Positions 1 to 9,386 of a stretch of DNA of 9,386 nucleotides are shown here, in pieces. The notes under the pieces are model-generated. The model was given only the letters and a program-made list of their open reading frames with translations, ran no database searches and was not told the origin of the DNA. A program made the translations under genes and the position numbers. Numbering within the stretch: the first letter of the stretch is position 1; the number at the start of each line of letters is the position of its first letter. Source of the DNA: Limisphaerales bacterium (GTDB lineage Bacteria; Verrucomicrobiota; Verrucomicrobiae; Limisphaerales; UBA11358); NCBI GenBank assembly GCA_003152145.1, contig PLZL01000225.1:5324-14709 (forward strand). Reading direction: 5' to 3'.

Positions 1-913
1 TGTTGATGCAGAACAGCGGCTCCGCCCCGAGGTCTTCCGCGAGCTGGAGATACTCGTGATAGCCGAGACCCTGTGTGGAATAATACTTCCAGATGTTCCA
101 AAGCGGCGTGCGCGTGTCAATGTTGCCGATGGTGTTCTTCCAATGGTTCATGTGCGCGAAATCATCGCCTTCCACCCAGCAGCCGCCGGGAAAACGCAGA
201 AACCTGGGATGCAGCGCGTCGAGTGATTCCGCGAGGTCGGTGCGCAGGCCATGATCCTTCCATGTCTTTTTCGGCATGAGTGAAATCATGTCTAGGAACA
301 AAACGCCCTTGCCGTCGCCGGAGATTTCCAGTCTCGCCTTCGGGTCGCTGCCGGTCGCCGTCAAATCCAGCGTGCGATAACGCCAGTCGTTGCTGATGCT
401 GGAAAGGTCGCCGCTGGCGAGAACTGCGCCGGTGCTGTTCAAAATTTTCGCCGTGAGTTTGCCGTTGAAGTTTTCGCCGCGCGCCGCGAGCTTGAGCGTG
501 TAGCCGTCGCCTTGCACGATGTTCATGCCCCAGTAACCTTCATTCTCCAAGGTGAACGCGCCGTTCACTCTCACGTGGAGCGATTTCCGGTTGAACGGAT
601 TCAACGGCGGCGGCTGTGCATGCACATCCGCGGTGATGACTGACGCCTCGCTCGTGCCATCGCCAACATTGGCGAACTTCCAATCCTCCGGCGTGTCGGC
701 GTCCTCGAACGAGCGGTTGCGCACCAGTTCCGGGTAAATGCCGCCGTCGGCGGACAAATTGATGTCCTCGAAGAAAATTCCCCACAACGTTGGTGAAATT
801 GCGTGGGCGGGATGCGCCGCATCCACGGTGATTTTTGCCGGCTGCGCGCTTGCCGCCAGGGCGGCCGACAGCGCCACTCCGGCGAGCCAGTTTTTCAATT
901 GGAAGATTGTCAT
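1..913 (-). CDS. Secreted alpha-L-arabinofuranosidase, GH51 (5' part, cut by window edge)
   Basis: The 304 visible residues are the N-terminal part of a GH51 alpha-L-arabinofuranosidase, which removes non-reducing L-arabinofuranosyl groups from arabinan or arabinoxylan. The start at 913 gives a classic Sec signal peptide (hydrophobic residues about 9-21, likely cleavage after Ala-Ser-Ala at 21-23), so the enzyme is exported. Family blocks visible are LWGIFFEDIN (about residues 43-52), a beta-sandwich region resembling a carbohydrate-binding insert (about 75-200), and RFLRFPGGCWVEG. Both catalytic glutamates would lie beyond the left edge and cannot be checked. It is a clear paralogue of the GH51 gene at 4777-6798, with the same blocks in the same order, but it carries a plain signal peptide rather than a possible lipobox. 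Its promoter carries the shared tandem operator at 983-1016. No Shine-Dalgarno sequence precedes the start. The family call is firm; substrate preference is inferred. Confidence 0.93.
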   Translation of the reverse strand, partial: MTIFQLKNWLAGVALSAALAASAQPAKITVDAAHPAHAISPTLWGIFFEDINLSADGGIYPELVRNRSFEDADTPEDWKFANVGDGTSEASVITADVHAQPPPLNPFNRKSLHVRVNGAFTLENEGYWGMNIVQGDGYTLKLAARGENFNGKLTAKILNSTGAVLASGDLSSISNDWRYRTLDLTATGSDPKARLEISGDGKGVLFLDMISLMPKKTWKDHGLRTDLAESLDALHPRFLRFPGGCWVEGDDFAHMNHWKNTIGNIDTRTPLWNIWKYYSTQGLGYHEYLQLAEDLGAEPLFCIN

Positions 914-953: not shown

Positions 954-982
954 ATGATTCGCATCGCCAAAAAATTCCGCAA
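954..982 (-). promoter_or_regulatory. Candidate promoter of the left GH51 gene
   Basis: On the minus strand TTGCGG (977-982) is followed after exactly 17 bp by AATCAT (954-959), about 40 nt before the start codon at 913. The -10 hexamer is poor, and the -35 directly abuts the proximal operator unit at 983-995, as expected for an activator-dependent promoter. The same arrangement recurs at 6825-6853 and 8691-8719. No transcription start is known. Confidence 0.5.
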
Positions 983-1016
983 CGCCAATTTGCGTTAAAA
1001 GGCCGCCAAAATGCGT
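983..1016 (-). promoter_or_regulatory. Tandem 13-bp operator upstream of the left GH51 gene
   Basis: Read on the minus strand, ACGCATTTTGGCG (1004-1016) and ACGCAAATTGGCG (983-995) stand in direct orientation with an 8-bp gap, a 21-bp repeat. The same pair with the same spacing lies upstream of the other GH51 gene and of araA. The site also faces the divergent prepilin-like gene at 1133, so it could in principle affect both directions. It is probably a sugar-responsive regulator site; the protein that binds it is unknown. Confidence 0.8.
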
Positions 1017-1132
1017 CGCTGCCATTTAATGGTTTATGATTATTTGTGCGCGGATCAAATCCGTTTTTGGCCGCAGGTTTTTGACTTGTTTTTGTTGGAC
1101 TTCTCCTGGATTGCTGTTAAACAGTAAAAACC

Positions 1133-1969
1133 ATGAATGCTCTGCTCGGCAATGAGGAGGAACCATTCAGGCCCACGCCCAACCGTGTGTGTAGCACGGC
1201 AGGCAGATTATTGAAATTCCAGTTTCAATCAAACCCGGTCGCGTCTTCAAAGGCGGCATTCACTCTGATCGAACTACTGGTTGTGATAGCCATCATTGGC
1301 ATTCTTGCCGCGTTGCTTATGCCCGTGCTTTCTTCCGCAAAAGAGAGAGGGCGTCGCATTCAATGCTTGAATAATCTTAGACAGTTCAATTTGGGTTTGA
1401 TCCTGTATGGCAACGACAATAATGACCGGATGCCGGAAATGAAGGGAGGGTTGTGGGCGTGGGACCTGCCGTATTCGGTCTGTGATGTGCTGATGAAACA
1501 AGGTGTCACGCGGGATATTATGTATGACCCCGGTTTTCCGGAAATGAACCAGGACGGTCTTTGGAATTATGGCGGAAGAACCGGCGACCCTTACCGCGTG
1601 ATCGGCTATGCGATGACATTTCCCGGCACCGCCAGCGTTACGGAAACGAATTGGAATCGCTCTGTCGCTCCGCAACCGATACAGTTTGGCGACATCACGC
1701 TGCCCGCGCCCAGTCCATCGGATCGTGCGATGGTCGCGGGCGCGGTGATTTCGGAACGCGGGGAAAAGGATCCGGCGCAACGCGCCACATATCAATACTC
1801 GGGCATAGTCGGTGGTTATGCGCCCCTGCCGCACCGGTGCGCGCATCTGGTAAAGGGAATGCCCGCCGGCGACAATGTGGCGATGTTGGACGGCAGCGTA
1901 AGATGGCGCATTTTCGCGGAGATGATGCCTCGGACAGATGATCCGGCCTGTCCGACTTTCTGGTGGTGA
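1133..1969 (+). CDS. Prepilin-like protein with N-terminal cleavage/methylation motif
   Basis: This 278-residue protein has a type IV prepilin / type II pseudopilin N-terminus: after Lys40-Ala-Ala comes Phe43, [14 protein letters not shown], giving the processing site, Glu5 and a membrane helix (about 43-65). The rest is a globular domain of the large Verrucomicrobiota/Planctomycetes prepilin-like group. It has [11 protein letters not shown] after the helix, a W-A-W-D block near 108-111, and a C-terminal [13 protein letters not shown] signature (about 246-258) close to the end. The predicted leader before Phe43 is 42 residues, long for the class, and no Shine-Dalgarno precedes the ATG, so a later GTG or TTG start is possible. 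It is the first of three co-directional genes and a paralogue of the convergent gene at 3821-4537. Its function is unknown: these proteins are abundant in the phylum but rarely studied. No convincing promoter was found in 1030-1132. Confidence 0.85.
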
Positions 1970-2030
1970 GGAACACGTTGCGGAGTGATTATTGAATAAA
2001 CAATCGGGTGGTTCTGGAAAGATAAGTTTT

Positions 2031-2903
2031 ATGAGCAAGCCTTTGCATAAAGACATTTCGTTTTGGATCGTGGTCGTCACGCTCGTTGGCGCGGCGGATG
2101 TGGCCCAGCTTCACTTCGGGCTTCCGTGGTTCAAGGGTAAGGTTATCGCCGCGCAGCCAGCGGACAGAAGGACGAATCTAGTGCAGGTCGTGGACGCGTT
2201 CAACCAGCCGGCAAACCTGGATGTCAGCAAGAAAACCTATTCGTGGCAGGCGCCGAGGTTCAATCCCCGCCTGTTGCAGGATGCTCCGGTTCAAGTTGTG
2301 ATTATCCCCACCGAATACACGCCACCTTCCGGTGGCTGGTCAGCTTGGCAATCGAATGCGGTAATTGGTATCCGCATGCCCGCTGATTCTGTTGTTCTGT
2401 CGGCTTACAATTGGACTAGCCGGGCGCGGACGATTCTTCCCGATCAAATGCCGCCGGGCCAATTTGACTTTATCGCCAAGCAACCCAGTGGCGCGCGCGA
2501 GGCATTGCAGGCGGAGGTCAAAAGCAAATTTGGCCTCGTCGCGGAACGTGAAATAATGCAGACCAATGTTTTGATCCTCCGGCTGGACCATACAAACGCT
2601 CCGGGCTTGACACCGATGGCAATGCGAACAGCAACCCCGGCACCAAACCAGCCAGGAATGATGCGGGTTCCGAATGTGGCCATTCTTACGTCCATTCTTG
2701 AATCGCAATTACAGTTGCCGGTGATTGATCAAACGGGATTGACAGGGTCATATGACATTCAATTCCCAATGATACGGCGGACACCCGGCCAGCCGAGTGA
2801 CGCGCTCCAACAGGCAAAGAAAATATTTATCGAACAGCTCGGCCTGGATTTGGTTGAATCAAATGCTCCGGTTGAAGTGTTAGTCGTGAAAAAAATAAAT
2901 TGA
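2031..2903 (+). CDS. DUF3738/TIGR03435-like protein, membrane-anchored
   Basis: The protein has 290 residues from ATG 2031. A short basic N-terminus and hydrophobic segment (about residues 9-25) suggest a signal anchor or signal peptide, so the rest is probably extracytoplasmic. The C-terminal half matches the DUF3738 pattern: an AYN-W block near 125-128, QFDFIAKQP near 143-151, a 'FGLVAEREIMQTNVLILRL' stretch (about 167-185), VIDQTGLTGSYDI (231-243), and EQLGLDLVESNAPVEVLVV near the end. This family is greatly expanded in Acidobacteria and Pedosphaera-like Verrucomicrobiota and has no established function. A longer form from TTG 1992 is possible, because GGAG sits 6 nt before it. I prefer ATG 2031, preceded by GGAAAGA, because the membrane segment then lies near the N-terminus. 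It lies 61 nt after the prepilin-like gene and 33 nt before the next, probably in one transcript. The family call is from remembered motifs. Confidence 0.75.
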   Translation: MSKPLHKDISFWIVVVTLVGAADVAQLHFGLPWFKGKVIAAQPADRRTNLVQVVDAFNQPANLDVSKKTYSWQAPRFNPRLLQDAPVQVVIIPTEYTPPSGGWSAWQSNAVIGIRMPADSVVLSAYNWTSRARTILPDQMPPGQFDFIAKQPSGAREALQAEVKSKFGLVAEREIMQTNVLILRLDHTNAPGLTPMAMRTATPAPNQPGMMRVPNVAILTSILESQLQLPVIDQTGLTGSYDIQFPMIRRTPGQPSDALQQAKKIFIEQLGLDLVESNAPVEVLVVKKIN

Positions 2904-2936
2904 ACAGGAACAACAGTCACCGCGAGGAATAATGCC

Positions 2937-3806
2937 ATGAGTGAATTCAAGTTTAATTGCCCGCACTGTGGTCAACACATGTCCGGCGACGCCGCCCTGC
3001 AAGGCAGCCAGGTCGCCTGTCCTTCCTGCCAGCAAACACTGACGGTGCCGGCTCCACCCGCAAACACTCCGATCACTCGCGCCGGCTCCCAGGCTCCGGC
3101 CTCGGCACCGGACGCCAAACAAATCTCAACGTCCGCACTCCTCTCGCTGGTTTGCTCCCTTGGGCTTGGCATTGGCAGCATTCCGGGAATTATTTTCGGC
3201 CACATCGCCAAGGCTCGAATTCGCCGCGACCCGGCAATTCACGGAAAAGGCCTGGCCGTGACAGGATTGGTTCTTGGCTATTCGTTTTTGATTTTCACAC
3301 TGGTTTTCCTCACGGTTGGTTTTGTGGTGTTAAACCCGAAACATGGCCGGCAAATCACGGCGAAGGAAGAGGCCGCCAGCACACCGGCAACGCTGGCCGC
3401 ACGCCTTGTGGACGAGGTGAAAATCAGCGATTCCGCATCTGAATCCGAGCACGGCATGAAAACCATGTTCAGCACTCATGGAACATACATGAACAACCCC
3501 GTCCGCGATGCCTTGAATGGCGGATTTGTCAGTTACGTCATGAAAGTTGATCCGGTCCAGCCGATGACTCTCCGCTGCAAATACTGGGGAAATGATAATG
3601 CAGCGCGTCGCTTCGACATTCTTGTCAATGACAAGGTGATTGCCACTCAACAATTGGAGTTCAACGATCCCGGCCACTACTTCAGCGTGGAATACGACAT
3701 TCCGCAAACTCTGACCCGAGGGAAAACCGAAGTCACCGTCGTCTTTCAAGCGTATCCCCGAAAAAAAGCCGGCGGGATTTACGGCTGCCAGATACTGAAA
3801 CGCTGA
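2937..3806 (+). CDS. Zinc-ribbon / DUF4190-like membrane protein with GH127-tail-like C-terminal module
   Basis: This 289-residue protein has three visible parts. Residues 1-35 form a zinc ribbon with CPHC (Cys8, Cys11) and CPSC (Cys28, Cys31). A Pro/Ala-rich linker leads to a membrane region (about 62-132) built as in DUF4190 proteins: one hydrophobic stretch, a basic loop with GHIAKARIRR, then a second helix beginning GLAVTGLVLGY. Residues about 157-289 look like the module at the C-terminus of many GH127-type beta-L-arabinofuranosidases (DUF6805, named from memory): GGFVSYVMKV, LRCKYWGND, RRFDILVNDKVIATQ, FSVEYDIP, KTEVTVVFQAYP, AGGIYG. No catalytic domain is present. The start is well supported by GAGGA 8 nt upstream. 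It follows the DUF3738-like gene by 33 nt and ends 14 nt from the convergent gene. Its role is unknown; a membrane protein that binds glycans or senses the cell surface is one guess. Topology cannot be fixed from charge alone. Confidence 0.85.
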   Translation: MSEFKFNCPHCGQHMSGDAALQGSQVACPSCQQTLTVPAPPANTPITRAGSQAPASAPDAKQISTSALLSLVCSLGLGIGSIPGIIFGHIAKARIRRDPAIHGKGLAVTGLVLGYSFLIFTLVFLTVGFVVLNPKHGRQITAKEEAASTPATLAARLVDEVKISDSASESEHGMKTMFSTHGTYMNNPVRDALNGGFVSYVMKVDPVQPMTLRCKYWGNDNAARRFDILVNDKVIATQQLEFNDPGHYFSVEYDIPQTLTRGKTEVTVVFQAYPRKKAGGIYGCQILKR

Positions 3807-3820
3807 TTCCGAATCACTGT

Positions 3821-4537
3821 TCAAAAATTCCATCGCACCGGTCCGCCGGGACCGATGGTGCTGAAACGAACTTCCATGTCTTTGAAGTCGCGCCATTCCA
3901 CATGCTGATCCTCAAAGAGCACGTTTCCTCCAAGAGGATTTTTGTCGTGCATATGATTGCTGCGGTCCACCCAGATTCCCTGGATTTTCAGGTAATCATC
4001 ATCCACACATGCCGTCGCATCGAAGCTCAACTCTGTCTCTTCTGGAGGTGTTTGTCCATCACCGGTCAAGCTCGCCCGCCACAGATTTCGCGGAACTTGT
4101 CCAATCCCTTTGAACAACATCCCGTATCCTATGAGGCTGACCGACCCGTGAGTCTGCTGCCAAAAATTCCAGTGCCGGTCATCGTTCATCGTGGGATTGG
4201 CCGGGCAGTAAAACATCTGGCGTCCAACACCCTTGGATTCCAGATCGCTTACCAGATTGGTGTTCATGTCCCACGGCCACAGCGAACCGGCGAAACGCGG
4301 ATTGGCCGCCGTGCAATCGGGCAACAAATCCTTGTTGTCTTTCGAGTAGAGCGCCAACGCATTGGCAATCTGCTGGAGATTTCCCTGGCATTGCGTCCGC
4401 AACGCGTGTTCCTTTGAGCGGGTTGCGCCGAAAAGGAACAGGAAAGCCAGCACACCCACCACGCAAACAATCGCCGCCACGTCAAGCGGCCTGATCGCGC
4501 CTTCGTTTCTTCGAATTTTGAGAAAAGAGCATTTCAT
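3821..4537 (-). CDS. Prepilin-like paralogue with degenerate processing motif
   Basis: This 238-residue protein is alignable with the prepilin-like protein at 1133-1969 in the same order of blocks: a membrane helix (about residues 19-37), RTQCQGNLQQIANALALYSKDN, W-P-W-D near 87-90, M-F-Y-C-P, HWNFWQQT, LIGYGMLFKG, and a C-terminal GGNVLFEDQHVEW (203-215). The canonical FTLIE processing motif is absent. The equivalent stretch reads AIRPLDVAAIVCVVG, with Asp where Glu5 would be and Arg in place of the usual polar residue. It may therefore be a fixed membrane protein rather than a processed pseudopilin. I chose ATG 4537 because AGGA lies 9 nt upstream; an in-frame ATG at 4555 has no such signal. 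The reading frame is intact and the C-terminal signature kept, so it is not an obvious pseudogene. Function is unknown. Confidence 0.82.
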   Translation of the reverse strand: MKCSFLKIRRNEGAIRPLDVAAIVCVVGVLAFLFLFGATRSKEHALRTQCQGNLQQIANALALYSKDNKDLLPDCTAANPRFAGSLWPWDMNTNLVSDLESKGVGRQMFYCPANPTMNDDRHWNFWQQTHGSVSLIGYGMLFKGIGQVPRNLWRASLTGDGQTPPEETELSFDATACVDDDYLKIQGIWVDRSNHMHDKNPLGGNVLFEDQHVEWRDFKDMEVRFSTIGPGGPVRWNF

Positions 4538-4728
4538 TTTCGGCCATCCTTTCATTGTGGGTCAACGATTACGGGCCATCACTTTTTACCAGAGCTACCC
4601 TGCTGAAGCAAATGAAAGAGAGCAGGAATATCTATATGCGTGGAACGTGCTCTGTCAGCCGGATACATGACAACGCCAGCAATGCCAGCACAAAGCGAAC
4701 GTGAACAATATGGATTTTATCGAGGACA

Positions 4729-4755
4729 TGATTCAACCAGATCAGGGTTGAATCA
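4729..4755. terminator. 10-bp perfect inverted repeat downstream of GH51, possible 3' hairpin
   Basis: TGATTCAACC (4729-4738) and GGTTGAATCA (4746-4755) are perfectly complementary around a 7-nt loop, starting 21 nt beyond the stop codon of the GH51 gene on the minus strand. No T-run follows on either strand, so it is not a textbook intrinsic terminator. It could be an RNA 3'-end stabilising hairpin, a Rho-assisted terminator, or a protein-binding palindrome. The rest of the 4538-4776 gap shows no gene. Confidence 0.4.
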
Positions 4756-4776
4756 CAAAAGTCACAGTGTCATCGC

Positions 4777-6798
4777 CTATTTCAACCGCAGGATGGTGAG
4801 CGAGTTCGCGGGAAAATCGTGTTGAAATGCCGGACTGGAAATGTTCAAGACGCTTTCCTTGGGCGAGATGCTTTGCGGGCCGGCAAAGGAATTTTCATCG
4901 TTGGGTTCGCCGGCCAGCACGATAAGTTTTGCGTCCGAAGAAATGTTTCCCAGACCGGTTAGGTTCAGTTGCACGCTGGCGGCGGTTTTGTCGCCGTTGA
5001 CGACTTTGAGGATGATTTCCCCGCTGGCGTTGTCGCGCGTGGCGGAGGCAAACAGTTTTGCGCCGGTCGGCGAATCCAATTTCACGGGCAGAACCACGTC
5101 GCCGTGGTTCAGGCTGAAGAGCTGCTGCACATAATAATTGGGAGTGCGATAAATGTTCAGGCTGTTCACCCAGATCAAGTCAGGCGTCCACTGCCATGCT
5201 TCCGAATTGGCGAAGAGCGGCGCGTAACTCGCCATGCGCACCACGTCGCCGTTGCGTTCAAGTCCGGTCATGCAGGCGGCTTCGGCGAGGGCGCATTCAA
5301 GATTGTTGCGGTTTTTGACGCTGACGATCTTGTCGCTTTGGGCCGCATACTCGCCGAAGAAAACCTTCGGACCGTTGCGGTCGTAATTGTCGTAGCGGTG
5401 CGTGTTCTCGAAAAACCAGCTTGGATTCGCGTAGCAATGTTCGTCAACGATGTCCGCGTGCAATTCGCGCAGCTTGGGCCACGCGAATTTGAAACGGTCG
5501 TCCGCCGGTTCCGGACCGGCGGCGGAGACGAGCTTGATGTCGGGATACTTCGCCTTGATGGCCTGGGCAAATTTCGCGTAGCGATCAATGTATTGCTGGC
5601 CCCATTGTTCGTTGCCAACGCCCATCATTTTCAGGTTAAACGGTTCGGGATGTCCCATGGCTGCGCGTTTCGCGCCCCACGCGCTCGTCGCCGGGCCGTT
5701 GGCAAACTCAATCAGGTCGAGCGCGTCCTGAATGTAGGGCCCAAGCTCATCAATCGGGCAAAGCTCGCCGGAATTGAACTGGCAGGCCATGCCGCAATTC
5801 AAAATCGGCAGCGGTTGCGCGCCGATGTCCTCGCACACCAGGAAATATTCATAGAAGCCGAGGCCGAATGATTGATAATAATCCGGCGTGGGCCGGTGGA
5901 CAAATTCATAATTCCAGCGGTCGATCAAAAGCGGGCGTTCCTCGACCGGGCCGATGGTTTTTTTCCACTGATAACGGCGTTCGAGCACGCTGCCCTCGAC
6001 GATGCAGCCGCCGGGAAAACGCAGGAAGCCGGGCTTCATGTCGGCCAGCGCCTGCACCATGTCTGCGCGCAAACCGCCGGGACGATTTTTCCAGGTGTGT
6101 TCCGGGAAAAGCGAAATCATGTCGAGGTCAACGCCACCCTTGCCTTCAACCAGCACATAAAGTTTTGCCTTGGTGTCGGTGTCGTTCGGATGCAGCACGG
6201 CCGTGATTTTCTTCCAGTCCCCGGAAAAATCCTTCAAATTCACGGAGTCCAGCACCGCGCCGTCGCCGCCATAAAGCGCGATGCGCAATGTCGGTGTGCC
6301 GGAAACGTTGCGGATTTGGGCGGAAAAATTGTAAGCCTCGCCTTTGCTCACGCCGATGCCGCGAAAACCTTCATTGGCGATACCAATGACATCCTTGCCT
6401 TCGGACTCAACGCGCAGATAGTGAGGATTGGCGGTATTAAAGGGATCTTCATCGCGGATGGACAACTGCCCGCGGGCGTTGCTGGGACTGATTTTAGTCC
6501 AGCCCATCAGCGCCTCAGGAAATTCAAACCCGCGATTCTTGACCATCTCAGCGTAAAGCCCGCCGTCCGCGCCGAAGTTGATGTCCTCGAAGAAAATCCC
6601 CCACATCGCCGGATTAAGCTGCGCACCGGGCTGGTCCACGGCCACGGAAATTTTCGCAGGTTGGGCGTTGGGCGTGATGGTCGTCGCCGTCACCGCGCCG
6701 GAGTGACCGGAGGATCGCGGCGACTTGCATCCGTTGGTCATGCTCCCGATGATCAGCGCCGTTCCGAAGAGGAGGATTTTCCACGTCGAGTTTGTCAT
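4777..6798 (-). CDS. Exported alpha-L-arabinofuranosidase, GH51 (complete)
   Basis: The protein has 673 residues, usual for the long GH51 type. It hydrolyses terminal alpha-L-arabinofuranosyl linkages in arabinan, arabinoxylan or their oligomers by the retaining mechanism of the family. Visible parts are MWGIFFEDINFGADGG (about 65-80), a beta-sandwich, CBM4-like insert (about 97-230), GFLRFPGGC, then the TIM barrel with the acid/base Glu397 in GVGNEQWG, HCY at 454-456, and the nucleophile Glu483 in FFGEYAAQ. A C-terminal beta domain runs to the end. The start at 6798 gives a hydrophobic export segment (8-20) ending MTNGC, with Cys24 as a possible though imperfect lipobox, suggesting a lipoprotein. 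An in-frame ATG at 6933 was rejected because the extension would cross the operator and promoter. There is no Shine-Dalgarno sequence. It lies downstream of araA in the same direction but has its own operator. Confidence 0.96.
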   Translation of the reverse strand: MTNSTWKILLFGTALIIGSMTNGCKSPRSSGHSGAVTATTITPNAQPAKISVAVDQPGAQLNPAMWGIFFEDINFGADGGLYAEMVKNRGFEFPEALMGWTKISPSNARGQLSIRDEDPFNTANPHYLRVESEGKDVIGIANEGFRGIGVSKGEAYNFSAQIRNVSGTPTLRIALYGGDGAVLDSVNLKDFSGDWKKITAVLHPNDTDTKAKLYVLVEGKGGVDLDMISLFPEHTWKNRPGGLRADMVQALADMKPGFLRFPGGCIVEGSVLERRYQWKKTIGPVEERPLLIDRWNYEFVHRPTPDYYQSFGLGFYEYFLVCEDIGAQPLPILNCGMACQFNSGELCPIDELGPYIQDALDLIEFANGPATSAWGAKRAAMGHPEPFNLKMMGVGNEQWGQQYIDRYAKFAQAIKAKYPDIKLVSAAGPEPADDRFKFAWPKLRELHADIVDEHCYANPSWFFENTHRYDNYDRNGPKVFFGEYAAQSDKIVSVKNRNNLECALAEAACMTGLERNGDVVRMASYAPLFANSEAWQWTPDLIWVNSLNIYRTPNYYVQQLFSLNHGDVVLPVKLDSPTGAKLFASATRDNASGEIILKVVNGDKTAASVQLNLTGLGNISSDAKLIVLAGEPNDENSFAGPQSISPKESVLNISSPAFQHDFPANSLTILRLK

Positions 6799-6824
6799 GC
6801 GCAAAATATCAGGAATTGCCGGGC

Positions 6825-6853
6825 ATGATTCGTGGCGCCAAGAAATTTGGCAA
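6825..6853 (-). promoter_or_regulatory. Candidate promoter of the complete GH51 gene
   Basis: TTGCCA (6848-6853) and AATCAT (6825-6830) on the minus strand are separated by exactly 17 bp, and the -35 abuts the proximal operator unit. The -10 is identical to that of the left GH51 gene. The predicted leader is only about 20 nt and has no Shine-Dalgarno sequence. Assignment rests on the repeated geometry at three loci. Confidence 0.5.
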
Positions 6854-6887
6854 CGCCAATTTGCGTCAAAAGGCCGCCAAAATGCGT
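6854..6887 (-). promoter_or_regulatory. Tandem 13-bp operator upstream of the complete GH51 gene
   Basis: On the minus strand ACGCATTTTGGCG (6875-6887) and ACGCAAATTGGCG (6854-6866) are in direct orientation with an 8-bp gap. The pair differs from that of the left GH51 gene only at one gap base, and similarity between the two promoter regions continues to both start codons. It lies 55 nt before the start at 6798. The remaining 6888-7011 stretch up to araA shows no gene. Confidence 0.8.
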
Positions 6888-7011
6888 CGCTGCCATTTCT
6901 TGCCGGATCGGCGCTGCAAGAGCGTTCCGGCATCGGCGGTGGCCTTCGCTGATGTCGCCTTCCAATCCGCCGGACTGGCCTCGCTCCAATAAATGGCGAT
7001 CAGGAAACCCA

Positions 7012-7028
7012 GCCGCGTATTACGCGGC
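7012..7028 (-). terminator. GC-rich hairpin straddling the araA stop codon
   Basis: A 17-bp near-perfect palindrome made of GCCGCGTA and TACGCGGC with one central base can fold as a 6-bp GC stem with a TAATA loop. The TAA stop of araA (7020-7022) lies in the loop. No T-run follows on the minus strand, so termination is uncertain. Confidence 0.3.
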
Positions 7029-8537
7029 CCAACCGCTCTTCAGACCGTAGGCCGCATCGTTCCAGACCAGTTCCTGTTTGAACTGGCGCAGCTTCGTGCC
7101 GGCGTCAATCACGACCACTTCGAGCCCGGCAATCGCCGCGAAGTCTTCGAGCATCTCCGTCGTGACGGCCTGGCTGAAGCCGGTGTGATGCGCGCCGCCT
7201 GCGTAAATCCACGCGGCGCAGGCATCCTCGAAATTCGGACGGCATTTCCAGACGGCCTGTGCCACCGGCAGCTTGGGCATCGGCTGTTCGGGTTTGACGA
7301 CATCCACTTCGTTGATGAGCAGACGGAAGCGGTTGCCGAAATCCATCAGCGCCGCGTTCACCGCCGGGCCGGCGGGCGTGTTGAAGACGAGCCGCGCCGG
7401 GTCGGCCTTGCCGCCGATGCCGAGCGGATGCACCTGCAACGACGCCCTGCCATCCGCGATGCTCGGACAAATCTCCAGCATGTGCGCGCCGAGCACGACC
7501 TTGTTGCCCGGCTGCAAATGATAGGTGTAATCCTCCATGAACGACGTGCCGCCCTTGAGTCCGCTCGCCATGACTTTCATCGCGCGGACGAGCGCGGCGG
7601 TTTTCCAGTCGCCTTCGCCGGCGAAACCGTAACCGTCGGCCATGAGCCGTTGCGGCGCGAGGCCGGGCAATTGCACGAGGCCGTGCAAATCCTCAAACGT
7701 CGTCGTGAAACCCTTGAATCCGCCGTTCGTCAGAAACGCGCGCAGGCCGAGTTCGATGCGCGCAGCTTCGCGGACGGATTTGTGGCGCTTGCCGCCCTTT
7801 TTCAAATCACCGGAAATTTCGTAGGTTGCCTCGTAAGTTTTGCACAGCGCGTCAACTTCCTTTTCCATCGCATCGTTGACGACTTTCACCAGGTCGCCGA
7901 CGCCGTAGCCATTCACGGCGAAACCGAATTTCATCTGTGCGGCAACCTTGTCGCCTTCGGTCACGGCCACTTCGCGCATATTGTCGCCGAAGCGGCAGAA
8001 CTTCGCGGTCTGCCAGTCGGCCCACGCCGCCGCGGCGCGCGCCCACGCGCCAAGTTTGTCCTGCGTGGATTTTTCCTGCCAGAAGCCGACGACCACCTTG
8101 CGGTTCAGCCGCATCCGGCTCCAGATGAAGCCATGCTCGCGGTCGCCGTGCGCGGCCTGGTTCATGTTCATGAAATCCATGTCAATCGTCGCCCACGGGA
8201 TGTCGCGGTTGTATTGCGTGTGCAGATGCGCCACAGGTTTGCGAAGCTGTTTAAGGCCGTTGATCCACATCTTCGACGGCGAGAACGTGTGGCACCAGGT
8301 GATGAGGCCGATGCACTTCGGCGCGTTGTTCGCGGTCTGGCAAAGTTCTGTCACCGCGTCAGGCGTGACCAGCACGGGCTTGAAGATGACCTTCACCGGA
8401 ATCGCGGGCGCGACATTGAGCGTCCTGGCGATTTCCTGCGAATGTTCGGCGACCTTCTTCAGGGTTTCCGGGCCGTAAAGATGCTGGCTGCCGGTGACGA
8501 ACCAGACTTCGAATTGCTTAAGGTTAATGGTATTCAT
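7020..8537 (-). CDS. araA: L-arabinose isomerase
   Basis: This cytoplasmic enzyme converts L-arabinose to L-ribulose with a divalent metal (usually Mn2+), the first step of bacterial arabinose catabolism. The 505 residues are close to the roughly 500 of the E. coli enzyme. The N-terminus [13 protein letters not shown] is diagnostic of the family. The metal/catalytic set is present: Glu308 (GFAGEGDWK), Glu335 (SFMEDYTYH), His352 (GAHMLEICP) and the His450-His451 pair ([11 protein letters not shown]). The start at 8537 fits the family N-terminus. It has no Shine-Dalgarno sequence; an A- and CAA-rich stretch precedes the ATG. The gene has its own tandem operator (8720-8753) and a predicted leader of about 147 nt. 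It follows xylA in the same direction, with a likely terminator between. No araB or araD is in view, so the kinase and epimerase steps are encoded elsewhere. Confidence 0.97.
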
Positions 8538-8684
8538 GGTTGTTGTTTTTTGAATTGTTCAAAATTTCGTGTCGCTGCAATTTATTCCAGCAGATGCAGC
8601 TTTTGGCTCAAATGCGGGGTCAAGCGGAGTTTCTCCGGAACCCAAGCTGCCGGCAATAACCGGATTGATACTGCAGGCTGTGTT
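8538..8684 (-). promoter_or_regulatory. Long untranslated leader of araA
   Basis: If transcription starts just after the candidate -10 at 8691-8696, the araA mRNA has a leader of about 147 nt, against about 20-35 nt for the two GH51 genes sharing the operator. It contains small potential hairpins (CGGAG/CTCCG with a 3-nt loop at 8625-8637; TTTTGAA/TTCAAAA at 8548-8564, ten nt before the start). I recognise no known riboswitch, and no small ORF stands out. Confidence 0.3.
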
Positions 8685-8690
8685 TGTTTT

Positions 8691-8719
8691 ATGAAACTAA
8701 ACGAGGCCTGTTTTCACAA
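8691..8719 (-). promoter_or_regulatory. Candidate araA promoter
   Basis: On the minus strand TTGTGA (8714-8719) abuts the proximal operator unit and is followed after 17 bp by TTTCAT (8691-8696). The TTG at -35 and TCAT at -10 keep the same positions relative to the operator as in both GH51 promoters, although the surrounding sequence differs. That independent conservation is the main support. Confidence 0.5.
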
Positions 8720-8753
8720 CGCCATTTTGCGTCAATCAATCGCCAAAATGCGT
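8720..8753 (-). promoter_or_regulatory. Tandem 13-bp operator upstream of araA
   Basis: On the minus strand ACGCATTTTGGCG (8741-8753) and ACGCAAAATGGCG (8720-8732) form a direct repeat with an 8-bp gap. The gap and flanks are unlike those at the GH51 genes, so only the 13-bp units and the 21-bp period are conserved, as expected of a real binding site. It links araA to the arabinofuranosidases in one regulon. Confidence 0.82.
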
Positions 8754-8794
8754 TTGCGAACCAGAGACGAATCCAACGATCCCACAACGGAGTC

Positions 8795-8815
8795 AAAAAG
8801 ACCCTCTGAAGAGTC
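8795..8815 (-). terminator. Probable intrinsic terminator of xylA
   Basis: On the minus strand GACTCT and AGGGTC pair (six pairs including one T-G wobble) around a TCAG loop at 8800-8815, followed directly by five T (8795-8799). The hairpin overlaps the xylA stop codon. The stem is short, so efficiency is uncertain, but position and T-run fit. It would separate xylA transcription from araA. Confidence 0.5.
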
Positions 8816-9386
8816 AGATGAATTCGTTGATGAGATTTTCCAGGAATTCCTGCCGGCCGCTGACGTTGGGTGTCACTTCGCCTTTCTTCAGGATGTAAGC
8901 TTCAATTTCCTTCAGCGAAGCTTTGCCGGACTCGATTTTCGCACCGATGCCCGAATCCCAGGACGAATAACGCTGCTTCACAAATTCCGCGAGGCGTCCA
9001 TCTCTGCGAATGGCGGCGGCAATCTTCAGGCCGCGTGCGAAGGCGTCCATACCGCCGATGTGGGCATGGAACAAATCCACCGGCTCGAAACTTTCGCGGC
9101 GAACCTTGGCGTCGAAATTCAAGCCGCCGGTGGTGAACCCGCCGTATTTGAGGATGGTGAGCATGATCTGCGTCGTGAGATAAATGCTGGTGGGGAACTG
9201 GTCGGTGTCCCAGCCGATCAGTTCGTCGCCCGTATTGGCATCCACCGAACCGAGCGCGCCTGCCGAACCCACCACTTCGAGTTCGTGCTGCATGGAGTGA
9301 CCGGCCAGCGTGGCGTGGTTGGTTTCGATGTTCAGTTTCAAATCACCCATCAGGTCGTATTCGCGCAGGAAATTCAGGCACGCGGC
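8814..9386 (-). CDS. xylA: Xylose isomerase (3' part, cut by window edge)
   Basis: The 190 visible C-terminal residues belong to xylose isomerase, the cytoplasmic enzyme that converts D-xylose to D-xylulose with two divalent metals. Conserved family blocks are [14 protein letters not shown] (metal-binding His), [20 protein letters not shown] (metal-binding Asp residues in VDAN and GWDTDQFP), [16 protein letters not shown] (further metal-binding Asp), [20 protein letters not shown], and [15 protein letters not shown] at the end. All are intact, so the gene looks functional as far as it can be seen. The start and promoter lie beyond the right edge. It is upstream of araA in the same direction, grouping xylose and arabinose use as expected for arabinoxylan degradation. 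Whether its promoter also carries the 13-bp tandem operator cannot be seen here. Confidence 0.96.

Follow-up and report, generated by a model that had tools for sequence, protein, structure and literature searches.

Which protein reads the paired repeats that lie upstream of sugar genes in this stretch of Limisphaerales DNA, and which genes does it govern? The window, that is, the whole stretch of 9,386 nt that was analyzed, contains exactly three ACGCAWWWTGGCG-N8-ACGCAWWWTGGCG pairs (Table 1). All three are on the minus strand, on which the downstream genes are also encoded, and all have a unit period of 21 bp; this arrangement was matched 0 times in 200 dinucleotide shuffles of the window, and single units with up to two mismatches numbered 12, against 3.25 expected. 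The first-pass annotation had described three direct pairs with a 21-bp start-to-start spacing on the coding strand, each upstream of a sugar gene, and both parts of this description were borne out, Pfam assigning the downstream products to GH51, GH51 and AraA. As set out in the following sections, these pairs are very likely the operator of a XylR-family activator bound as tandem subunits, the second of which touches the -35 element.

Operator pairs in the window

A TTG directly abuts every pair, and a hexamer of the form TTGNNN is separated by 17 bp from one of the form WWTCAT (TTGCGG..AATCAT, TTGCCA..AATCAT and TTGTGA..TTTCAT). This had been summarized as TTG, 17 bp and WWTCAT; the adjacency of TTG and the 17 bp between the hexamers hold, but the gap is 20 bp if counted from TTG itself. 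A matrix trained on the sites of other genomes scored the window sites at 47.7, 43.6 and 43.1 bits, and the runner-up in the window, at 1.1 bits, is the third site read on the other strand. The promoters of copies 1 and 2 show 79% identity across about 124 bp and, judged from their sequences, are one duplicated promoter, so that the window holds two independent cases rather than three. The xylA fragment was recognized by its PDB match and has no Pfam match, and no regulator gene was found within the 9,386 nt of the window.

Table 1. Genes, operator copies and promoter elements of the window
Feature	Position	Strand	Basis
GH51 alpha-L-arabinofuranosidase, presumed target of copy 1; runs off the window	2..913	-	Pfam ASD1_dom, E 1.3e-22; ATG at 913 read from sequence
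-10-like hexamer AATCAT, copy 1, 17 bp from the -35 hexamer	954..959	-	sequence
-35-like hexamer TTGCGG, abuts unit 2 of copy 1	977..982	-	sequence
Operator copy 1, ACGCATTTTGGCG-N8-ACGCAAATTGGCG	983..1016	-	exact match; matrix 43.6 bits for 980-1016
GH51 alpha-L-arabinofuranosidase with CBM_4_9, presumed target of copy 2	4777..6798	-	Pfam; ATG at 6798 read from sequence
-10-like hexamer AATCAT, copy 2	6825..6830	-	sequence
-35-like hexamer TTGCCA, copy 2	6848..6853	-	sequence
Operator copy 2, ACGCATTTTGGCG-N8-ACGCAAATTGGCG; promoter duplicates that of copy 1	6854..6887	-	exact match
araA, L-arabinose isomerase, presumed target of copy 3	7020..8537	-	Pfam AraA_N, central and C domains
-10-like hexamer TTTCAT, copy 3	8691..8696	-	sequence
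-35-like hexamer TTGTGA, copy 3	8714..8719	-	sequence
Operator copy 3, ACGCATTTTGGCG-N8-ACGCAAAATGGCG, within the xylA-araA intergenic region	8720..8753	-	exact match; matrix 47.7 bits for 8717-8753
xylA, xylose isomerase, C-terminal part; upstream of araA, same direction	8814..9386	-	PDB 1a0c, E 1.1e-64

The operator in other genomes

A collection of one genome per species (84,980 species) was scanned for two CGCAWWWTGGCG units separated by any gap from 0 to 30, and 98 pairs in 90 loci were obtained. In this free-spacing scan, the period was 21 in all eight loci (seven genomes) titled Limisphaerales, Limisphaera, Verrucomicrobia subdivision 3 or plain Verrucomicrobia, and TTG followed the pair in seven of the eight; these loci and all three window sites thus share a direct-repeat layout with roughly two helix turns between the unit starts. 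The 20-bp and 36-bp pairs of the same scan look like conserved coding DNA, one sequence being common to 18 of the 19 20-bp pairs and one to 6 of the 10 36-bp pairs, and were set aside without annotation. In the order of genome G006 (320 genomes), 59 sites with at most two mismatches were identified in 32 genomes, and the reversed pattern gave three matches.

The operator was absent from 29 of the 30 closest araA loci (82–94% identity; the window araA is 94% identical to that of G007), and the araA operator is therefore lineage-specific; at the 30th locus, a pilin-like gene lies between the site and araA. That the operator at araA is lineage-specific and that the promoters of copies 1 and 2 are alike would fit another reading, in which the pairs are a mobile repeat or simply products of promoter duplication and do not serve as operators. 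Between genomes, however, it is mostly a 30–38 bp operator-TTG block that is conserved, and the flanks mostly are not: the match of the DNA upstream of the window araA to the other loci fetched is limited to this block, and the copy 2 promoter has two longer weak matches elsewhere (51 bp at 80% and 74 bp at 73%). In addition, 53 of the 59 sites are followed by a called gene of the same orientation, and the sites adjoin one regulator clade and recur next to regulators of another phylum, Planctomycetota, in which the operator also serves other genes and the targets differ. A repeat with no role as an operator is therefore extremely improbable.

Promoter geometry and asymmetry of the units

TT directly follows the operator in 48 of the 59 sites of other genomes. 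Position counts were made on 54 sites, L146, L147, L160, L161 and L192 having been dropped (genomes without the clade regulator, sites without TT); TTG follows the operator in 38 of these 54, and matches to the -10 hexamer (at least four of six) peak at a 17-bp spacer (20 sites), the next best spacer, one base off, accounting for nine. The TT count and the 17-bp peak place the proximal repeat next to a -35 element.

The first-pass annotation had offered an alternative in which two dimers of another regulator family, here taken as LacI/TetR-like repressors, sit side by side, each on a CGC-N6-GCG palindrome, as the CGC...GCG ends of each unit and the 21-bp period, which keeps both on the same face, would allow. 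Although the search pattern allowed mismatches equally at all mirror positions compared (TTG and the -10 hexamer lying outside it), these positions proved to be unequally constrained in the 54 sites. Position 11 of unit 1 deviates in 15 sites, compared with no deviation at its mirror, position 2; positions 3 and 4 of this unit deviate in five and six sites, and their mirrors, 10 and 9, never do. For unit 2, the counts at positions 11 and 2 are six and zero. The two-fold symmetric half-sites of a LacI-type palindromic operator are thus lacking. The inner A4 and G9 likewise fail to pair symmetrically, a feature partly built into the search pattern, which is itself asymmetric, so that counts at fixed letters are partly built in as well. 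Moreover, the proteins associated with the sites carry an AraC-type domain, with no LacI HTH in a Pfam scan of four, and the site abuts the -35 element in the manner of an activator. Paired repressor dimers are accordingly very unlikely.

A XylR clade linked to the operator

A regulator clade was defined with profile A1, which was built from regulators near motif loci and scored against the five best candidates per genome; regulator counts are based on profile searches because greedy longest-ORF calling missed some regulators masked by antisense frames (e.g., L179). The XylR clade (at least 460 bits) is present in 37 of the 320 genomes of the order of G006, and the operator was found in 26 of these 37 compared with 6 of the 283 others (Fisher test, 5e-24). 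Because A1 came from regulators near motif loci, the test was reduced by leaving out the 16 genomes from which profile rows had been taken, which gave 1.4e-9. Sites were also scored with the operator matrix, trained on 48 of the 59 sites picked for TT after the operator, for which the highest score in 200 shuffled loci was -3.5. Among the clade genomes without a two-mismatch match, 10 of 11 carry a matrix site beside the regulator, with best scores of 26–50 bits.

Of 40 clade regulators, many of whose loci were fetched because of a motif, 32 have a matrix site at most 400 bp away; for the 20 whose loci were retrieved on the basis of the regulator only, the count is 13. The other 8 of the 40, including 7 of these 20, have no site within that distance, and two of the positive regulator-linked sites reach just 14–16 bits. 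Beside second-tier XylR paralogues, a matrix site was found in 0 of 20 cases (20 of the 21 best second-tier matches, that of G261 being left out). Near sites are aimed at a neighbor, away from the regulator gene, in 34 of 35 cases. In related genomes, a regulator gene is thus linked to the operator; G109 contains TTG-bearing sites, yet no clade regulator above 367 bits.

Pfam identified Peripla_BP_3 and HTH_18 in all five regulators scanned, and a profile of 18 regulator sequences matches E. coli XylR (4fe7) over nearly its full length (E 9.4e-78); the regulators of related genomes accordingly combine a LacI-like periplasmic-binding domain with an AraC-type double HTH. The E. coli AraC protein, the sensor of which is a cupin domain, likewise has direct repeats spaced at 21 bp, and its targets include araA. 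This similar half-site geometry and the common target would fit a classical AraC, with a cupin arabinose domain and an AraC HTH, in place of a XylR-type chimera, but the cupin-type AraC sensor domain is absent from the five site-linked regulators scanned with Pfam, all of which have Peripla_BP_3, XylR is the best PDB match of the regulator profile, and the operator co-occurs strongly with the XylR clade. A classical AraC is therefore a highly improbable candidate, and the regulator of the window operators is very probably a XylR-family protein. The earlier proposal of an AraC/XylR-like activator on 21-bp direct half-sites beside the -35 element is well supported in related genomes by clade co-occurrence, adjacency and the fixed -35/-10 geometry, and we infer that the protein binds directly and activates rather than represses.

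The XylR-family activator would combine an N-terminal LacI-like periplasmic-binding sugar sensor with a C-terminal AraC-type domain that carries two helix-turn-helices, and its inducer would most likely be L-arabinose or a close derivative. Each subunit would read one asymmetric unit, CGCAAAWTGGCG, so that two subunits would lie next to each other with the same orientation and, at 21 bp, on the same helix face. The second would touch the -35 element of a promoter that is weak (TTGNNN, 17 bp and a -10-like hexamer) and recruit RNA polymerase to it. In the window organism, the genome of which presumably encodes the regulator, two arabinofuranosidases and araA would be switched on in this manner.

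Content of the regulon

The 59 sites yielded 51 immediate downstream genes, six sites having no called gene, two sharing one gene and L192 being omitted. According to Pfam, the counts of which were used because a LamG domain in the query had made the first GH43 labels too numerous, these genes encode 7 arabinofuranosidases, 4 AraA, 4 GH43 proteins and 1 FGGY kinase, together with 18 LamG proteins, 10 proteins with autotransporter repeats and 9 pilin-like proteins, families that overlap. The regulon is thus one of arabinose/arabinan and surface-protein genes rather than a general pentose regulon; the earlier term fits the arabinofuranosidase, AraA and GH43 genes but is too general, and the LamG, autotransporter and pilin-like genes belong as well. 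The operator thereby connects arabinan breakdown with proteins of unknown role (pilin-like, LamG and autotransporter-type), and araA has been drawn into the regulon in one lineage.

Comparison with known systems

The domain order of E. coli XylR (PDB 4fe7, 4fe4), a LacI-like sensor followed by an AraC-type DNA domain, is like that of the clade regulators, and its operators in the xylA-xylF region are, as here, direct repeats at a sugar promoter. Over the initial 75 bases of the xylA-xylF stretch examined from E. coli, the best period among 15–31 is 21 (10/14 bases), a value equaled at period 21 by 26 of 2000 shuffles. The E. coli repeat is AT-rich, whereas the units here are of the form CGC...TGGCG, and the targets of E. 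coli XylR are xylose genes, in contrast to the arabinose and arabinan genes here. The second recognition helix, which we take to be QYFYSVFK in E. coli XylR, is presumably H.ARYFR in the clade regulators.

The half-sites of E. coli AraC differ from the units described here, and AraC also uses a distal loop site, whereas the 120 bp upstream of the 54 sites contain seven extra unit-like matches in five loci, in no consistent place, and one of these matches, at -21 in L174, is a true third unit. Both araI1 and araI2 are occupied by AraC, and it is from araI2 that polymerase is recruited (PMC4760080), an arrangement of two adjacent half-sites with a polymerase-recruiting proximal one that is likewise proposed here. 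Vibrio XylRA, a XylR-type activator shown to bind in gel shifts, resembles the regulator proposed here in its motif of two direct repeats and in governing polysaccharide-degrading as well as monosaccharide genes, but it has xylose as effector, AT-rich repeats and homologues mainly in Gammaproteobacteria (PMC12125979).

Significance and a possible family code

The consulted parts of the open literature on XylR with Verrucomicrobia, Planctomycetes or arabinose, and on Limisphaerales binding sites, contain no such regulon, subscription papers being outside this scope. Verrucomicrobiota and Planctomycetota are important degraders of plant and algal polysaccharides, and to our knowledge gene control in these phyla has been little mapped. 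A defined operator with its regulator clade allows predictions of the responding genes in uncultured members.

It is possible, if somewhat doubtful, that PVC XylR-type regulators bind 21-bp tandem pairs under a readable code, in which the first HTH (SRR..LE.RF) would read the CGC 5' half-unit and the second (H..RYFR) the TGGCG 3' half-unit. If so, the operators of many uncharacterized XylR paralogues would be predictable from protein sequence. Most of the 20 paralogues gave no clear repeat, including L332 and L343 despite RR at the first helix. Consistent with such a code, the same operator is found beside regulators in two phyla with differing targets, and beside paralogues whose second helices differ, 21-bp repeats of other units are overrepresented, CGCAAAA being kept in two of these repeats (L347 and L348).

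Probable Operator Pairs in the Window

The first-pass annotation had described three direct pairs of the 13-bp unit CGCAWWWTGGCG, each with TTG and WWTCAT, and all were found as claimed: the exact paired motif occurs at three places in the window and no others, always on the coding strand, and has 0 matches in 200 shuffles of the window. TTG directly follows every pair, and the WWTCAT hexamer lies 17 bp past the TTGNNN hexamer. The promoters of copies 1 and 2 (79% identical, about 124 bp) represent one duplicated promoter; the three copies therefore count as two independent cases. Between the two GH51 genes, Pfam identifies pilin-like, DUF3738, and DUF4190/DUF6805 genes on the plus strand, and there is also one minus-strand gene without a Pfam match, which we label pilin-like by its appearance.

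Genes and operator copies in the 9386-base window
Feature	Position	Strand	Remark
Second GH51 gene, start	2-913	minus	
Operator copy 1	983-1016	minus	
Pilin-like gene	1133-1969		
DUF3738 gene	1992-2903	plus	function unknown
DUF4190/DUF6805 gene	2937-3806	plus	function unknown
Pilin-like gene	3821-4555		
GH51 arabinofuranosidase	4777-6798	minus	
Operator copy 2	6854-6887	minus	
araA	7020-8537	minus	
Operator copy 3	8720-8753	minus	
Xylose isomerase gene, end	8814-9386	minus	PDB 1a0c, E 1.1e-64

Spacing of the Paired Units

A scan for two CGCAWWWTGGCG units with a free gap of 0 to 30, which does not presuppose a 21-bp period, was performed on one genome per species from 84,980 species (contigs of at least 3,000 bases) and yielded 98 pairs at 90 loci. 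Period 20 accounted for 19 pairs, 18 of them one repeated sequence that is probably coding, and period 36 for 10 pairs, 6 of them alike; the Puniceicoccales and Opitutaceae records (Verrucomicrobiota by title) had periods of 17 and 32. Twelve pairs had a period of 21, comprising eight Limisphaerales-like loci (seven Verrucomicrobia/Limisphaerales-type records), one Phycisphaerales, one Tepidicella, and two Acetobacter pairs. TTG follows seven of the eight Limisphaerales-like pairs, most of which also have T-rich spacers, and neither feature was part of the search pattern. The 21-bp spacing noted at first pass is that of all eight Limisphaerales-like loci in this free-gap scan.

In a record titled only ‘bacterium’ (L079, 2824-2857), an arabinofuranosidase gene is preceded by a period-22 pair, and an XylR-like gene is located about 3 kb farther along. 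At another locus (L174, 4649-4702), three tandem units are arranged in exact 21-bp steps, and three subunits may bind there in a row.

Association with XylR-Type Regulators

In a related order (that of G006, 320 genomes), the paired pattern at up to 2 mismatches identified 59 sites in 32 genomes, versus 3 for a reversed-pattern control. The bases after the second unit are T, T, and G at 52, 50, and 44 of the 59 sites, respectively, and, with 5 chance-like sites removed, a TATAAT-like hexamer (at least 4 of 6) was most frequent at a 17-bp spacer (20/54 sites; next best 9/54). Among the loci of the free-gap scan, araB and a divergent XylR-like gene flank the operator at L002, XylR-like genes adjoin it at L022 and L033, and at L055 it is part of an arabinan cluster that contains araA, GH43, and GH51; the XylR-like proteins of these loci combine Peripla_BP_3 and HTH_18.

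Profile A1 was built from 18 regulators near operator sites, 17 from order-wide loci and one from L079. Applied to the XylR-like proteins of the 32 motif genomes, it gave 29 matches of at least 559 bits in 26 genomes, followed by a gap down to 402 bits. The clade defined by this profile is present in 37 of the 320 genomes, and the motif occurs in 26 of these 37 versus 6 of the 283 others (Fisher 5e-24, or 1.4e-9 once the 16 genomes that contributed A1 rows are set aside). Among the six motif genomes without a clade member, G073, G086, G118, G133, and G261 have sites lacking TT, and G109 has two sites, both with TTG.

The training set of a scoring matrix comprised 48 sites, none of them from the window; the largest matrix score in 200 shuffled control loci was -3.5. 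Beside the regulator in 10 of the 11 clade genomes without a near-exact motif, the best score was 26-50 bits, and in the eleventh (G062) the regulator is at a contig end. The TTG-extended pattern, at up to 3 mismatches, matched 68 sites (control 0) in 35 of 40 genomes (the 37 clade genomes plus G008-G010), with no site in G032, G035, G041, G009, or G010. A matrix site lies within 400 bp of 32 of 40 clade regulators, and 34 of these 35 nearby sites are oriented away from the regulator gene. Many of these 40 loci had been chosen by their motif, and the fair comparison is therefore at the 20 loci fetched for the regulator alone, where 13 have a site within 400 bp, versus 0 of 20 beside second-tier XylR paralogues (outside the clade) in the same genomes. 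The AraC/XylR-like activator proposed at first pass is thus well supported in related genomes by a clade that the operator accompanies and adjoins; activation itself we infer.

Predicted Mode of Binding

Two dimers of another regulator family, bound side by side, had been offered as an alternative. The unit is asymmetric: among 54 sites, position 11 of unit 1 departs in 15 and its mirror position 2 in 0, and the corresponding counts for unit 2 are 6 and 0. The search pattern is itself asymmetric, so that fixed letters alone are weak evidence; mismatches were tolerated equally at mirror positions. This inequality is consistent with a single AraC-type double-HTH domain on each unit and speaks against a palindrome-binding dimer, to which we leave a very slim chance because the asymmetry count is partly built into the search pattern. 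With one double-HTH domain per unit, both subunits would face the same way, since 21 bp corresponds to two helical turns. The second unit touches the -35 element; arabinose would presumably activate at these operators.

The closest solved structure to the clade regulators is E. coli XylR (4fe7). AraC recruits polymerase through binding at araI2 (PMC4760080), and the characterised XylR-type activator XylRA of Vibrio binds two direct repeats and controls xylan genes (PMC12125979). The observation is real and well explained, and the operator sequence and regulon are new within the XylR-operator kind, with binding, inducer, and sign of regulation predicted from sequence.

Composition of the Predicted Regulon

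The Pfam families in the 51 genes directly downstream of operators overlap; they include LamG (18), autotransporter repeats (10), pilin N_methyl (9), arabinofuranosidase (7), AraA (4), GH43 (4), PEP-CTERM (4), and FGGY kinase (1). By coordinates, the operator is directly upstream of araA in nine genomes (G030, G087, G088, G092, G120, G128, G203, G209, and G210). These data indicate arabinose/arabinan as the common theme, plus large secreted or surface-type proteins; of the pentose regulon first proposed, the arabinose/arabinan part therefore stands, but its broad pentose scope does not, given the LamG, autotransporter, and pilin targets.

A pilin-like gene is directly behind the operator at 9 of 59 sites (L142, L150, L155, L164, L170, L171, L177, L180, and L185), which suggests an unexplored part for pseudopilin-like proteins in polysaccharide use.

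Operators at araA

Relatives of the window's araA occur in 83 of 320 genomes, those of G007 and G002 being 94% and 92% identical, respectively. Both of these genomes encode a clade regulator and have operators elsewhere, and the organism of the window likely has the regulator too. Of the 30 araA loci most similar to that of the window, 29 have no operator; in the sole exception (G269), a pilin-like gene separates the site from araA. Among 20 such regions fetched in full, 19 have no operator site, and 13 have xylA directly upstream, with 37-113 bp between matches; the window's xylA-araA gap (8538-8813) is 276 bp and holds copy 3. The operator was thus either gained at araA in the window's lineage or lost in many others. 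This intergenic DNA matches other fetched loci over 30-38 bp only, namely the operator-TTG block, and the copy 2 promoter has extra matches of 51 bp at 80% and 74 bp at 73%.

Phycisphaerales and Paralogues Outside the Clade

Strong A1 relatives were identified in 78 of 148 sampled genomes of Phycisphaerales (Planctomycetota). Nine of the 20 loci returned have a matrix site of 17-47 bits, and 11 have none; the site is about 150 bp or less from the regulator in eight and about 0.8 kb away in L308. The targets include Gfo/Idh oxidoreductases (L316, L318, and L327), GH43 (L321), a gene resembling xylA (L324), and, at L317, a GH127 beta-L-arabinofuranosidase gene with araB behind it; the operator is therefore common to regulators with different targets. 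Of three paralogues tested in G411, two have a site next to them.

Taken together, the second-tier paralogues without this operator are enriched in 21-bp repeats of different units, the mean best match being 9.7 of 14 at this period and 8.0-9.1 at the remaining 30. Scores of 12 or more occur at period 21 in 3 of the 20 loci, versus 2 cases at all the remaining periods combined. Three paralogues outside the clade (L347, L348, and L350) have their own 21-bp tandem repeats of other units, that of L348 being CGCAAAACCTGA twice. In L347 and L348, the first helix begins with RR and the repeat retains CGCAAAA; L332 and L343 also have RR at the first helix, yet show no clear 21-bp repeat. These few cases suggest a modular code. 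In the part of the E. coli xylA-xylF intergenic DNA examined, the best repeat period is likewise 21.
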